Part shown: positions 31,752-38,044 of the stretch, one piece after another | Layout: each line of letters begins with the position of its first letter | How positions within the stretch are numbered: the first letter of the stretch is position 1 | Assembly (NCBI RefSeq): GCF_010686655.1 | Contig: NZ_JAAGVY010000007.1 | Span: 1 to 64,000 of the forward strand | Length of the DNA stretch: 64,000 bases | Source of the DNA: Cryomorpha ignava | Lineage (GTDB): Bacteria; Bacteroidota; Bacteroidia; Flavobacteriales_D; Cryomorphaceae | Direction: 5' to 3' | Notes under the pieces: generated by a model | Database searches by the model: none | Seen by the model: the letters and a program-made list of their open reading frames with translations, nothing else | Told to the model about the DNA's origin: nothing | Translations under genes and position numbers: made by a program

Positions 31752-33218
31752 ATGAAATTGCTACAAGACATATTGTATCAGGTAAGTATTAAAGAAGTGG
31801 TGGGCTCTACCAATATAGAGGTAGAATCTATTGTTTTTGATTCGCGGAAAGCCACCAAATCATCGCTTTTCATTGCAATCAAAGGCGCGCTCTCTAATGG
31901 GCATGAATTTATAGATCAGGCTATTGCCAATGATGCTGTAGCTGTGATTTGCGAAGAATTGCCGGAATCAAAAAGTCCTGACATTACTTATGTGCTTGTC
32001 TCCGATTCACATGAGGCGCTCGGAATAATGGCTTCAAATTTTTACGACAATCCTTCAGAAAAGCTAAAGCTTATCGGGATTACCGGCACAAACGGTAAAA
32101 CCACAACTTCTACCATGCTTTACGATTTATTACGCCTTTTGGGGAATAAAGTAGGGCTAATCTCTACCGTAGAGAATAAGATTGATAATGAGATTGTTCC
32201 GGCAACGCACACTACGCCCGATGCGGTAAGCTTTAACCAATTGCTTGTGCAAATGGTAGAATCCGGATGTACTTATTGCTTTATGGAAGTGAGCTCGCAC
32301 GCCTTGCACCAGCATCGTGTAACGGGAGCAAAATTTTCCGGAGCGGTTTACACCAATCTTTCGCACGATCACCTTGATTATCACAAAACATTTGATGCCT
32401 ATATCGCAGCCAAGAAAATGCTTTTCGATATGCTGCCCAAAGAGGCCTTTGCGCTGGTAAATTTAGACGATCGCCAGGGCGAAACCATGCTTCAGAATTG
32501 CAAAGCTGGTATACAGCGCACCTATGCGCTTAAGTCGATGGCCGATTTTAAAGTAAAAGTTATCGAAAATCAATTTGGCGGCTTGCATGTAAATATCGAT
32601 GGGCTCGACCTCTATGCTAAAATGGTTGGGCGATTTAATGCTTACAATCTTTTATCGGCTTATGCCACTGGGGTTTTACTCGGTTTCGAAAAGCTTGACG
32701 TGCTTACTGCTTTGAGCAGTATTAATCCGGTTGCAGGTCGTTTTCAATATGTGATTAGTCCAGATAAGGTTACTGCCATCATAGATTATGCCCACACACC
32801 CGATGCGCTTAAAAACGTGTTGAAAACCGTTGAGGATATTCGCACAAAAAATGAGGAAGTAATCACCGTGGTGGGTTGCGGCGGAAATCGTGATGCTACC
32901 AAGCGGCCCGAGATGGCTCGTATTGCTTGCAAATTTAGCGACCGGGTGATTTTTACATCCGACAATCCGCGAAATGAAGATCCTGAAGCGATTATTGAAG
33001 ACATGATAAAAGGTGTGGAGCCACAGGATTTTCGAAAAACGAATACCATAGTAAATAGAAAGGAAGCCATTAAAATGGCATGCTCAATAGCCCGCTCTGG
33101 CGACATTATTCTTATTGCCGGGAAAGGACATGAAAAATACCAGGAAATTAAAGGCGAGCGCCTGCCATTTGACGATCTCGCCATTGTAAACGACACCTTT
33201 AAACTACTGAATCACTAA
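31752..33218 (+). CDS. murE: UDP-MurNAc-L-Ala-D-Glu:meso-DAP ligase
   Basis: A 488-residue Mur ligase with P-loop TGTNGKTT (111-118), the central domain [13 protein letters not shown], and C-terminal domain with PVAGRFQ. The DNPR sequence (in [10 protein letters not shown]) is the known determinant of meso-diaminopimelate specificity, so this organism should make DAP-type peptidoglycan. Normal length. The stop shares one base with the mraY start. Confidence 0.95.
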
Positions 33219-34462
33219 TGCTGTACTACCTATTTCAATATCTCGATACGCATTACAGCCTGCCCGGAACAGGGGTGTTTCAGTACATCTCTTTCCGGGC
33301 TGCTATGGCGGTGCTTACTTCTTTGGTTATCTCGTTGCTTTTTGGAAATACGCTGGTAGGAATGCTGCGCCGCAAGCAGGTGGGCGAGACTGTTCGCGAT
33401 CTGGGTCTGGATGGCCAAATTCAAAAACAAGGTACCCCAACTATGGGCGGGTTAATCATTCTTGGAGCTATTTTGGTGCCGGTTCTCCTCTTTGCCAGAC
33501 TAGATAATATTTATGTGATTATCATGATTATTACCACCGTTTTTCTTGGTGCCATTGGCTTTATAGACGATTACATAAAGGTTTTTAAGAAGAATAAAAA
33601 AGGCCTTGCCGGAAAGTTTAAAGTTGTGGGTCAGGTGGCTGTTGGCGTAGTGGTTGGAAGCCTGCTCTATTTTAACGAAGCTGTAGTAAGCAAAGAAAAA
33701 GTAGCTGTTCCGCAATCAGAAAATGTGGTACGCGAAGCAGGTGAAGCACCACAGCAAACATTTGAATGGGTGGAAGAAAAATCTGTTGTTACCACCATTC
33801 CATTTATCAAAAACAATGAGTTTAATTACGCCTGGCTGCTTGGCTTTATGTCAAAAGAAAATGCGGCGCGATGGGCATGGCTGGTATTTATTCCCATAGT
33901 GGTTTTTGTAGTCACCGCCGTGAGTAATGGTGCAAATATTACCGATGGTCTCGATGGTTTGGCAACAGGTTCTTCGGCAATTATCGGAGTTGTGCTGGCT
34001 ATTTTCGCTTTCGTTTCGGGTAACCTGGTATTTGCTGATTATCTGAATATTATGTTTATTCCAAACTCGGGTGAACTCACCGTTTTTATCAGTGCATTTG
34101 TTGGCGCCTGCATTGGCTTTTTATGGTATAATTCATATCCTGCTCAAGTGTTTATGGGCGATACTGGTAGCCTTGCCCTCGGTGGAATTATCGCCGTTTT
34201 TGCCCTTGCCATCAGAAAAGAATTGCTCATTCCGCTTTTCTGCGGAGTGTTTTTAATAGAAAATATTTCGGTAATGATACAGGTGGCGTACTTCAAGTAC
34301 AGCAAAAAACGATTTGGCGAAGGCCGCAGAGTTTTTCTGATGGCACCACTACATCACCATTATCAAAAGCTTGGATACCACGAGTCTAAGATCGTTTCAC
34401 GGTTTTGGATAGTGGGAATATTGCTCGCCGTATTGTCAATCGTAACCCTAAAACTACGCTAA
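33218..34462 (+). CDS. mraY: Phospho-MurNAc-pentapeptide transferase
   Basis: A 414-residue polytopic membrane enzyme forming lipid I. Hallmarks: [12 protein letters not shown], the aspartate pair in [21 protein letters not shown], and the HHH motif in [12 protein letters not shown]. Between helices 3 and 4 there is an insertion of about 60 residues (roughly 155-215, [16 protein letters not shown] and onward) relative to E. coli; I recall such inserts in other Bacteroidota. The gap to murD is 2 nt. Confidence 0.95.
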
Positions 34463-34464
34463 AA

Positions 34465-35796
34465 ATGAAGCTCTTGGTTTTAGGTGGAGGCGAAAGTGGA
34501 GCCGGAGCAGCAATGCTCGGTAAGAAGCTGGGGTACGATGTATTCCTGTCTGACCGGGGTGTACTGAAAGAAAAGTACAAAAACGTTCTTATCAAGGCGG
34601 GAATTAAATGGGAAGAAGGTGCACACAGCGGAGATTTTCTTCAGGGAACAGAATTGGTGATTAAAAGCCCGGGCATTCCTTCAGAAACTGCCATAGTATT
34701 GGATCTTAAAAAGGCCGGAGCCGAGGTGATTTCTGAAATTGAATTTGCTGCAAGGCATACCAAAGGAAAGATAATCGCCATAACAGGTACCAATGGCAAA
34801 ACGACCACTACGCTGCTTACACATCACATGTTCGCGAAAGCGGGAAAAGACGTGATAGCTGCGGGAAATGTAGGAAAAAGCTTTGCAGGCCTGCTCGCCG
34901 AGCGCGATCGCGATATCTGGGTGCTGGAGGTGAGTAGCTTCCAACTTGATGATATTGTGAGTTTTAAGCCCGATGTTGCGATTTTACTCAACATTACTTC
35001 TGATCATTTGGATAGGTATGGCTACGAAATGCAAAACTACGCTGATGCCAAGTTTGCAATCGCACGAAACCTTACCGAGGCAGATCATTTTATCTACAGC
35101 GATGATGATGAGGTGATTCTCAAAAATCTGAAAGAGAAGAATATCAAAGCGCAACTTCACCCTATATCTACTTACCATCCCGTTGAAAACGGAGCATATA
35201 TAACTGAAAATGAACTAATAATTAACCTTACTAATAATCCATATAAAATGTCCATACACGATTTAGCCCTTCAGGGCCGTCACAATGTTTACAATTCAAT
35301 GGCGGCAAGTGTTTCGGCCCGCCTTTTTGATCTCCGAAAGGAAGTGGTGCGAGATAGCCTTTCAGACTACGAAAACATTGAGCACCGACTCGAATTTGTC
35401 GCCGAAATTCACGGAATTAAATTTATTAACGACTCAAAAGCTACCAATGTAAATGGGGTGTGGTACGCACTTGAAAATTATTCGGAAAAGATAGTCTGGA
35501 TAGTGGGAGGAGTTGATAAAGGAAATGACTATTCCATACTGGAAGCACTTGTACGTGAAAAAGTTAAGGCCATAATTTGTCTGGGTACCGACAATAAGAA
35601 ACTCATGGACTATTTCGGCCCCATGGTTGAAAATATAGCCGAAGCGCATACCGCAACCGAAGCTGTTAATCTGGGTTACGCTTTCGCGAAAAAGAATGAT
35701 GTGGTGCTGCTTTCGCCTGCATGCGCCAGCTTTGATTTGTTTGAGAATTATGAAGACCGGGGCCAGCAATTTAAGCGAGCCGTTCGCGCACTTTAA
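34465..35796 (+). CDS. murD: UDP-MurNAc-L-alanine:D-glutamate ligase
   Basis: A 443-residue complete MurD: Rossmann-like N-terminal domain, ATP site TGTNGKTT (107-114), central domain to about 300, and C-terminal domain 301-443. All glutamate and nucleotide contacts known from E. coli MurD have a match: H307-R308, NDSKATN (322-328), K352, SPACAS (417-422) and F426. The start is the ATG 2 nt after mraY; the longer frame from 34405 lies inside mraY. Two free-standing copies of its C-terminal domain follow, which makes this intact enzyme the reference for them. Confidence 0.95.
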   Translation: MKLLVLGGGESGAGAAMLGKKLGYDVFLSDRGVLKEKYKNVLIKAGIKWEEGAHSGDFLQGTELVIKSPGIPSETAIVLDLKKAGAEVISEIEFAARHTKGKIIAITGTNGKTTTTLLTHHMFAKAGKDVIAAGNVGKSFAGLLAERDRDIWVLEVSSFQLDDIVSFKPDVAILLNITSDHLDRYGYEMQNYADAKFAIARNLTEADHFIYSDDDEVILKNLKEKNIKAQLHPISTYHPVENGAYITENELIINLTNNPYKMSIHDLALQGRHNVYNSMAASVSARLFDLRKEVVRDSLSDYENIEHRLEFVAEIHGIKFINDSKATNVNGVWYALENYSEKIVWIVGGVDKGNDYSILEALVREKVKAIICLGTDNKKLMDYFGPMVENIAEAHTATEAVNLGYAFAKKNDVVLLSPACASFDLFENYEDRGQQFKRAVRAL

Positions 35797-35809
35797 ACCC
35801 CTTAGCGAT

Positions 35810-36328
35810 ATGTCAGAAAACAGAATAAATAAAACAACTAGTTCTAAAGCAAACCCACTGCTTGAGTCGAGATTGCGTAGCTTGCAGGCTGCGAAACCAT
35901 TTTGTCTGGAGTTTTGCGGTCGCATTAATGGAGTGACTTTTATAAATGATTCTGCCGCAACATCGATTGAAAAAGTTGCCGATGCTCTTATTAGTTTCGA
36001 TGAACCCGTAATTTGGATTGCAGAAGTTTCTGCGCCAAATACCGATTTTTCAATTATCAGCGATTTGATGAAATCTAAAGTGAAAGGCGTGGTTGCGGTT
36101 GGTGAATTTGGAGATGATTTACACAAAGCATTGATGCGCCAAGCCGGAATTTTTGTTGCTGCCAATACCTGGGATGAAGCTTTGGACATGAGCCTCATTC
36201 TTGGAAAAGCAAACGATAAAGTGCTCTTTTCTCCGGGTAGTAGGGCGATTGAACCCTTTGAAAATTATAAAGAAAGAGGTGCGTATTGGAATAGATTGGT
36301 AAGCATTTTACAAAACAACAATAACTAA
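35810..36328 (+). CDS. Stand-alone MurD C-terminal-domain homologue 1 (pseudo-enzyme)
   Basis: 172 residues: a polar tail of about 30, then a domain colinear with MurD 305-443. Matched blocks: GVTFINDSAAT (MurD GIKFINDSKAT), VIWIAE (IVWIVG), DFSIISDLMKSKVKGVVAVG (DYSILEALVREKVKAIICLG), KVLFSP (VVLLSP), PFENYKERG (LFENYEDRG). Lost residues: HR to F31-C32, the NDSK lysine to A49, K352 to P76, and ACAS to GSRA. No P-loop or central domain is present, so it cannot be a ligase. It sits 13 nt after murD and 3 nt before homologue 2. It probably arose by duplication and now has a binding or regulatory role; the role is unknown. The start at ATG 35810 avoids overlap with murD. Confidence 0.82.
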   Translation: MSENRINKTTSSKANPLLESRLRSLQAAKPFCLEFCGRINGVTFINDSAATSIEKVADALISFDEPVIWIAEVSAPNTDFSIISDLMKSKVKGVVAVGEFGDDLHKALMRQAGIFVAANTWDEALDMSLILGKANDKVLFSPGSRAIEPFENYKERGAYWNRLVSILQNNNN

Positions 36329-36331
36329 ATA

Positions 36332-36853
36332 GTGAAAGGCAAAAAGTCATATACGATTCACAAGAGCAAGAAAAGCCAGACTGACAAAACCTTATCAGCC
36401 AGCGATAATTTGAGGCGCAATCTGGAGCGAACTACTTATCGTGTTGATTCAGTTGTAATAGTTAAAGATGTGGAATTTGTATGTGACTCAAGATCTGCCG
36501 ATCTGCTATCAACTCGCGATTCCTTTAAGTTTTTGGAAAAACCAATAATATGGATTTCCGGAAAGGCAAAACATGAAAGAGATTACTCACTGATTGAGGC
36601 TTATCTGAATAATAAGATAAAAGGTGTTGTAATTTATGGGGTTAATGGTGAAGAGACGAGCGCTGTGCTAAACAAGTTTGTGAAGGGTGTAAAAGTGAAA
36701 GAAACATTGGTGGAAGCCGTAAACGCTGCTTATAAAATGGCCGAAAAAGGAGATGTGGTACTCTACTCGCCAAGCTGTGCGGTAAAAGACGAGTACCTGA
36801 ATTATGTAGATCGCGGATTGGAATTTATACGAATAGTAAAAGACTTAAAATAA
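36332..36853 (+). CDS. Stand-alone MurD C-terminal-domain homologue 2 (pseudo-enzyme, basic tail)
   Basis: 173 residues, GTG start. A lysine-rich tail (1-20, with KGKK and KSKKSQ) precedes a MurD C-terminal-like domain. Matched blocks: VEFVCDSRSAD (IKFINDSKATN), PIIWISG (IVWIVGG), RDYSLIEAYLNNKIKGVVIYG, DVVLYSPSCA (DVVLLSPACA) and YLNYVDRGLEFIRIV. Compared with homologue 1 it keeps R37 and SPSCA but changes H to Y36, N to C51 and K352 to H81. It lies 3 nt after homologue 1 and 3 nt before ftsW, so it is cotranscribed with the division genes. The basic tail could touch membrane lipid, nucleic acid or an acidic partner. Function unknown. Confidence 0.8.
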   Translation: MKGKKSYTIHKSKKSQTDKTLSASDNLRRNLERTTYRVDSVVIVKDVEFVCDSRSADLLSTRDSFKFLEKPIIWISGKAKHERDYSLIEAYLNNKIKGVVIYGVNGEETSAVLNKFVKGVKVKETLVEAVNAAYKMAEKGDVVLYSPSCAVKDEYLNYVDRGLEFIRIVKDLK

Positions 36854-36856
36854 ACG

Positions 36857-38044
36857 GTGAAACAACTGATTGCACAATATCTAAGAGGCGACAGAGTAAT
36901 CTGGATGGTATGCCTTATTTTGGGACTCGTCTCAATACTGGCTGTGTATTCCAGTATTTCGTCGCTTGCGTATAAATATACGGAGGGCAATACTTTTTAT
37001 TACCTCTTTAAGCATGGTATTATGCTTATTACAGGTTTTGTAATCATGTATTTTGTCCACAAAATCAATTACAGGTATTTTTCCCGCCTCTCCCAGATAG
37101 CTATTTGGCTGGCAGCCATTCTTTTAATTCTTACTTTACTTCTGGGTGTTAATTTGAATGATGCGAGTAGATGGATTAAAATCCCATTAATTAACCAGAA
37201 TTTCCAGACTTCCGATTTTGCAAAAATAGCGCTCATAGCCTATGTAGCGCGTATGCTCACTCTGCGTAAAGAGTTTTTTCACAGCTTTAAAGAGGGGCTT
37301 TTGCCAATTTTAATTCCTATTGTAATTATTTGTGGTTTAATCCTTCCGGCAAATTTCTCTACTGCGGCAATGCTTTTTATGGTTTGCGTAACTCTGCTTT
37401 TTGTGGGTGGCATTCCGTTTAAGCATTTGGTCATGGTTTTTGCCATAGCCGGTGCCGGATTTGCACTGCTTTTGGTGCTCTCCACTAGTTTTCCAGATCT
37501 CTTGCCCCGTGTAGAAACATGGAAAACGAGGTTGTTGAGCTATGAAAGTGGCGATAGCGAAGCCAATTATCAGGTAGAACATGCCATGATGGCCATACAA
37601 AGTGGCGGCGTTTTTCCAACCGGTCCGGGAACAGGCGATTCAAGAAATTATTTGCCACACCCTTATTCTGACATGATTTTCGCTTTCATTATCGAAGAGT
37701 ACGGCACTATAATAGGTGGATGCGGTTTGCTTTTGCTTTATCTCATCTTTCTGTACAGGGCTTTGCGGCTTGCGCGAAAATGTGAACGCAATTTTGGGTC
37801 ATTGCTAGTTATTGGAATGAGTTTTCTTATTGCTTTTCAGGCATTTATAAATATGGGTGTCGCTGTAAGTCTGCTCCCTGTTACGGGTCAGCCTTTGCCC
37901 CTAGTCAGCATGGGCGGTACCTCTATTTGGTTTACCTGCATTGCAGTGGGTATGATTTTGAGTGTAAGCAGATCGGTGTATGAAGGCGAGAAAATTCCGG
38001 GGGTAAATCGAGTTAAAAAGAAGAAGGATTATGCAGTCGCTTAA
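36857..38044 (+). CDS. ftsW: Septal peptidoglycan glycosyltransferase FtsW
   Basis: A 395-residue SEDS-family membrane protein with about ten helices. Recognisable: ASRWIKIPLINQNFQTSDFAK, PNFSTA-like PANFSTAAM, and the C-terminal AVSLLPVTGQPLPLVSMGGTS. It polymerises lipid II at the septum with FtsI. The start is GTG, 3 nt after the second MurD-domain gene. It overlaps murG by 14 bp. Confidence 0.94.
   Translation: MKQLIAQYLRGDRVIWMVCLILGLVSILAVYSSISSLAYKYTEGNTFYYLFKHGIMLITGFVIMYFVHKINYRYFSRLSQIAIWLAAILLILTLLLGVNLNDASRWIKIPLINQNFQTSDFAKIALIAYVARMLTLRKEFFHSFKEGLLPILIPIVIICGLILPANFSTAAMLFMVCVTLLFVGGIPFKHLVMVFAIAGAGFALLLVLSTSFPDLLPRVETWKTRLLSYESGDSEANYQVEHAMMAIQSGGVFPTGPGTGDSRNYLPHPYSDMIFAFIIEEYGTIIGGCGLLLLYLIFLYRALRLARKCERNFGSLLVIGMSFLIAFQAFINMGVAVSLLPVTGQPLPLVSMGGTSIWFTCIAVGMILSVSRSVYEGEKIPGVNRVKKKKDYAVA

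Follow-up and report, generated by a model that had tools for sequence, protein, structure and literature searches.

Relation to described systems

Several described systems resemble the locus examined here, which lies within a window of 64,000 nucleotides (the whole stretch of Cryomorpha ignava DNA that was analyzed). One is MurD itself: two open reading frames, ORF A and ORF B, share the fold of its C-terminal domain (CTD), are colinear with its residues ~303-443, and occupy the same locus, but they are separate genes that lack the UDP-binding and ATPase domains. A second comparison is with MurT/GatD, to which both ORFs give a weak Foldseek match and in which a Mur-ligase-derived protein works with a partner. 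MurT keeps the Mur-ligase central domain, however, whereas A and B do not have it.

Two further systems are relevant to what such a domain might do. In Thermotoga and Bordetella, MurG and MreB are described as a scaffold for the Mur ligases, and MurD is reported to bind both without ligand (PMC4816537, PMC6420597). This non-catalytic contact role is similar to that proposed here, but contact in those systems is made via full-length ligases, and no dedicated single-domain protein is described. The MurD2/MurL D-Glu route of Xanthomonas, in which two residue positions set the L-Glu specificity of MurD2 (PMC8788868), is pertinent as MurL-like proteins and MurD2 with the diagnostic Glu/Arg pair accompany loci that retain only the CTD in the taxonomic order of genome G556. 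The paper on this route, however, describes no free-standing MurD CTD and lists no Bacteroidota, and we find no MurL in the window genome or its sampled relatives. More generally, no account of free-standing MurD CTDs was found in full-text searches of an open-access library, a scope outside which most subscription papers fall.

Two MurD C-terminal domains between murD and ftsW

The features of the locus are as follows.

33218..34462, + strand: mraY, 5' of murD; in genomes with MurL, the gene immediately 5' of the CTD-only ORF
34465..35796, + strand: murD, full length (TIGR01087 2-441, E=8.5e-120), with all C-terminal catalytic motifs intact: HR, NDSKATN, GGVDKGNDY, and SPACASFD
35810..36328, + strand: ORF A, stand-alone MurD CTD, first, murD-proximal copy (ATG, 172 aa)
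36020..36043, + strand: part of ORF A corresponding to the GGxDKGND loop of MurD; the counterpart of Lys348 is lost in the active-site comparison
36332..36853, + strand: ORF B, stand-alone MurD CTD, second, ftsW-proximal copy (GTG start, 173 aa)
36350..36376, + strand: basic N-terminal motif of ORF B, [YF]TIHK[SG]KK(S), conserved and absent from MurD
36557..36580, + strand: part of ORF B corresponding to the GGxDKGND loop of MurD; His takes the place of Lys348 in the active-site comparison
36857..38044, + strand: ftsW, immediately 3' of ORF B; the downstream neighbor of most stand-alone CTD genes at related loci

The gaps between murD, ORF A, ORF B, and ftsW are 13, 3, and 3 nt. In the N-terminal motif of ORF B, T8, I9, H10, K13, and S15 are invariant among the 12 orthologues compared. 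A 254 aa antisense ORF (window 35434-36198, − strand) spans the end of murD and ORF A and looks like a mechanical overlap.

Both ORFs match only the C-terminal third of the NCBIfam murD model TIGR01087, ORF A over model positions 308-440 (E=2.8e-24, 86.0 bits) and ORF B over 303-440 (E=5.1e-25, 88.4 bits), and thus fall below the curated cut-off of 211.95 bits over the full model that defines MurD ligase membership. The sole Pfam family found in either is Mur_ligase_C (PF02875), with ORF B scoring 30.1 bits, above the gathering cut-off of 28.4, and ORF A 20.3 bits, below it; all 10 of the CTD-only members tested match this family at E<=0.01. Neither the P-loop-containing ATPase central domain (PF08245) nor the UDP-binding N-terminal domain was detected by Pfam in A or B. 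By BLASTP, ORF A is 37% identical to the CTD of the window MurD over 139 aa (1e-24) and ORF B 32% over 141 aa (4e-25), while A and B are 27% identical to each other (5e-17). The AlphaFold2 models have pLDDT values of 84.7 (A) and 82.4 (B), with the N-terminal tails being the less confident part, and the top Foldseek match in the PDB is MurD for both (A, 7ti7, E=1.5e-11; B, 1eeh, E=2.4e-10). The identity of A and B as MurD CTDs is therefore confirmed far beyond chance: by the membership test they are not MurD ligases, yet they are predicted from these models to carry the Mur_ligase_C fold. The original prediction of two tandem, duplicated, MurD-derived genes with operon-type spacing is borne out in coordinates, spacing, domain content, and predicted fold. 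Both models also give weak matches to PDB chains 8qma_O and 8r6s_Q, which we take to be plastid RNA polymerase chains, possibly a MurE-like subunit; if they are, they would be an earlier example of a Mur ligase serving a structural purpose.

Distribution across Bacteroidia

Among the 40 relatives searched, every sampled genome of the window's family (f1) has copies next to murD, two copies are found in families f2 and f7, and one or two in f3, f4, f10, and f11. The profile search of these relatives detected no copy in f5, f6, f8, f9, f12, and f13, the f8 type being mostly missed by the profile. The arrangement murD-CTD-(CTD)-ftsW is conserved in f1-f4, f7, f10, and f11, all of which belong to the taxonomic order of the window genome. 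Orthologues of ORF A are present with intact frames across the sampled f1 genomes, apart from one frame that is broken in the L003 assembly, and orthologues of ORF B are 32-52% identical in f1, f2, and f7. Eight named relatives of ORF B come from MAGs of Flavobacteriales and other Bacteroidota, including one labeled Cryomorphaceae. In f4, a second ORF of 145-146 aa (L026:2502-2942, L029:498-935) resembles a strongly degenerated second copy of the CTD.

In f8, a large family of this order, 17 of the 25 sampled loci have a murD-ftsW interval of 424-518 nt holding an ORF of 146-177 aa. A Pfam search of these ORFs gives no match, PF02875 included. When aligned to the profile of stand-alone CTDs, the f8 ORF is matched by hhalign with 98.5% probability (E=3.5e-15), and G098 is intermediate between the f8 type and this profile (E=1.2e-22). 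The f8 ORFs at L161-L167, L170, L171, L175-L177, and L190-L194 have the consensus LLQAR...AHGKxxGMDxFSW...FPxPVxW and are an extremely divergent form of the stand-alone MurD CTD. At f9 loci where both murD and ftsW were found, the intervening gap is <=75 nt. As f9, f13, and part of f8 have no stand-alone CTD, the domain is not universally needed.

Within the class, approximately 80 of 396 Bacteroidia genomes have an extra MurD-CTD match, a count that must be read as a minimum, since the f8 type escapes the profile, and for which verification covered 30 genomes and then 68. In the checked genomes, the extra matches are mostly frames of 160-230 aa directly 3' of a full MurD, and such frames occur in families f16, f17, f21, f22, f24, f25, f31, f35, f38, f40, f42, f47, f51, f54, f56, and f64. 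Our working definition of the stand-alone MurD CTD family of Bacteroidia is a frame of ~150-230 aa that contains the CTD only and lies upstream of ftsW, and both A and B fall within it. The genes are thus widespread in the class rather than local to this organism, and the census of the murD-ftsW interval places stand-alone CTDs at the same position in many of its families. No stand-alone CTD was found in ~186 genomes from other classes of the phylum; three of these give a pair of matches, apparently owing in one case to a contig edge, in another to a split frame, and in the third to a second, weak Mur-ligase match.

Departures from the usual arrangement are also observed. In G490 (L111:6081-6807, − strand), two small ORFs of 121 and 143 aa separate the stand-alone CTD from ftsW. 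Additional CTDs that are unlinked to the dcw cluster occur in f16, f56, and f52 (L099:4783-5322, L100:4617-5156, L101:4695-5333, L103:4371-4988), and those of f16 and f56 adjoin an aldehyde dehydrogenase gene.

Persistence of the domain in genomes without canonical MurD

In a subset of genomes, the CTD gene is found apart from murD. The ftsI-murE-mraY-murD cluster of G347 stops at murD, and the CTD gene and ftsW are paired on another contig. In the taxonomic order of G556, which is not that of the window genome, a different arrangement, ftsI-murE-mraY-[CTD-only ORF]-ftsW-murG-murC, is common, with full MurD absent from the cluster. A search of 128 genomes yielded 19 verified CTD-only genomes with MurL, and CTD-only loci occur in 19 of ~45 MurL-carrying genomes vs 1 of ~82 without MurL (G896). 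Two other candidates, G977 and G929, were dropped as contig-edge fragments of full MurD. When CTD-only genomes were searched with TIGR01087, over-cut-off matches were only to frames of 460-885 aa outside the cluster; eight of the 19 CTD-only genomes with MurL have such a match elsewhere in the genome, and no match over the cut-off was found in G931, G935, or G896. The last of these (L122; 98% complete, 2.1 Mb) has the CTD-only ORF but neither MurL nor MurD over the TIGR01087 cut-off, and murC was not found in its cluster. Judging from these gene inventories, the domain survives without canonical MurD in the CTD-only MurL genomes. Because the CTD of G347 stayed with ftsW and the 19 MurL genomes have no full murD in the cluster, the CTD outlives its parent enzyme, which speaks against a D-Glu sensor or a competitor of MurD and favors a putative non-catalytic docking role in the lipid II assembly line (MurG/MraY/FtsW/MreB).

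These observations also bear on the possibility that the free domain is a Mur ligase regulator, which would sit at the CTD position on MurD (or MurD2, MurE, or MurC) and slow or tune the enzyme. Such a role is attractive in that the domain is homologous to the mobile lid of MurD, has its fold retained in the AlphaFold2 models of A and B, and is encoded in the same gene run as the adjoining murD. The retention of the CTD in genomes that yielded no canonical full-length MurD, and with ftsW rather than murD in G347, nonetheless weakens the earlier suggestion of competition for the central domain of MurD. Since the equivalents of Arg302 and Lys319 are also lost in ORF A and all such motifs in f8, we consider regulation of this kind unlikely.

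Loss and retention of active-site residues

In the MurD CTD, Arg302, Lys319, Thr321, Lys348, and Ser415 contact D-Glu or nucleotide (PMC3527612, PMC8788868, PMC4816537), and Lys348, Thr321, Ser415, and Phe422 are the D-Glu-side contacts (PMC3527612). In the full-length MurDs compared, HR, NDSKATN, GGxDKGNDY, and SPACASFD are kept in all but a few cases, one being an f21 MurD that has GGEEHG; this full-length frame (L086, G316) reads GGEEHGNDY, with Lys348 replaced by His, and lies beside a stand-alone CTD. Unlike in MurD, the Lys348 loop is missing from nearly all of the compared stand-alone copies that neighbor a full MurD, the exceptions being L074 and L089. ORF A has lost Ser415 as well as Arg302, Lys319, and Lys348, while ORF B has Lys319 replaced by Arg, Ser415 by Val, and Lys348 by His, and every ligand motif is lost in the f8-type CTDs. 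Despite this divergence of ligand residues, the core positions D323, W345, G374, S417-P418, and R432-G433 (window numbering) are kept.

This pattern is difficult to reconcile with a ligand sensor, in which the domain would bind D-Glu, nucleotide, or UDP-muropeptide and report precursor levels to FtsW or MurG. The f3-type copies and some class copies do still have HR, NDSKAT, and Ser415, and the CTD-only copies of G888 and G916 keep GGxDKGNDY and all other CTD motifs intact. The residues that are mostly missing elsewhere, however, include the very D-Glu-side contacts, and the sensing of D-Glu or UDP-muropeptides raised in the original prediction is thus improbable.

MurD2 and the MurL association

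At the two positions that govern L-Glu specificity, the three elsewhere-encoded proteins that we examined carry Glu and Arg, which identifies them as MurD2. Each MurD2 examined is a full-length protein that has a CTD of its own, GGxDRG included, and stands beside a MurL-like epimerase or is fused to it, as in G556. The MurL-like proteins match NF041275 with E=1.1e-71, below the cut-off of that model. Within Bacteroidia, a MurL-like epimerase adjoining or fused with MurD2 is seen at L110:4764-7394 (− strand) and L124:1387-4154 (+ strand), and frames of fusion size also occur in G954 (921 aa) and G977 (949 aa).

The co-occurrence of CTD-only loci with MurL could indicate a Mur ligase partner, with the CTD supplied in trans, for example to MurD2. 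Although the association is strong when kinship is ignored (Fisher p=1.7e-9), it is confounded by kinship because MurL changes only twice on the tree, and a phylogeny-aware test has 4 independent pairs and is powerless. As the MurD2 proteins already possess a CTD, and the CTD motifs are intact in nearly all MurDs from genomes that carry the stand-alone domain, a role in trans is very improbable.

Purifying selection and origin of the stand-alone copies

For pairs with usable synonymous distances, the dN/dS of stand-alone CTDs is 0.03-0.14, with the L004/L007 pair giving 0.137 for A and 0.086 for B; the closest CTD-only pair gives 0.15. In the same analysis, MurD CTDs have values of 0.02-0.10. 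The range of 0.03-0.15, far below 1, indicates that the stand-alone CTDs are functional proteins that evolve faster than MurD, and a decaying local duplication is ruled out by this purifying selection together with the broad conservation. None of the findings that the original prediction named as refuting it was obtained, apart from the single broken frame in the L003 assembly. That the genes have no protein role and are a cis element (an internal promoter or translational coupling for ftsW) or a decaying relic might be supposed from start and stop codons within a few nt of their neighbors and from the faster evolution of the copies, but it is the least probable explanation given the dN/dS values, the intact frames in dozens of families, the existence of unlinked copies, promoter-like and terminator-like sites not above shuffled expectation, and an Rfam scan without a match.

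Our trees fit either one or several origins of the free domain. A tree of 95 rows separates the stand-alone copies from the MurD CTDs at one branch (SH-aLRT 82). In a second tree, the CTD-only rows group close to MurDs from the order to which they belong. By parsimony, independent truncations take 7 changes, 4 of which are forced by starred branches. With the low resolution of the tree, the AU test rejects neither a single CTD-only clade (p=0.30) nor a single clade of all stand-alone CTDs (p=0.66). The retention of GGxDKGNDY in G888 and G916 suggests a later truncation in those genomes.

A possible docking adaptor and its implications

Our tentatively preferred explanation, which we regard as quite possible though short of probable, is that A and B are free-standing, non-catalytic MurD CTDs ("pseudo-lids") of an old Bacteroidia family located upstream of ftsW, with the role of an adaptor. 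The stand-alone CTD would keep the protein-docking role of MurD and drop its chemistry, and it may hold the Mur ligases, MurG, or MreB near MraY and FtsW. Such placement would couple the synthesis of the lipid II precursor to the polymerase. The lineage of the window genome carries the gene as two diverged copies, A and B, each with its own N-terminal extension. A putative bridge between precursor synthesis and FtsW, as envisaged in the original prediction, is possible and agrees with the linkage seen among these genes.

Few bacterial gene clusters have been studied as thoroughly as dcw, and Mur ligases are antibiotic targets, yet many Bacteroidia families have a dcw gene for which no function appears to have been described. 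A protein dedicated to such an adaptor role would, if shown, be categorically new. Genomes with the CTD but no canonical MurD are natural experiments that part a structural role from catalysis, and the long-discussed Mur/MurG/FtsW multienzyme complex becomes directly testable. It is conceivable, and here we are more guarded, that the MurD CTD, besides its part in catalysis, serves to couple precursor synthesis to the FtsW machinery in a non-enzymatic way, and that Bacteroidia have made of it a dedicated protein that persists where MurL/MurD2 replaced catalytic MurD and would represent a new class of dcw-encoded cell-wall adaptor.
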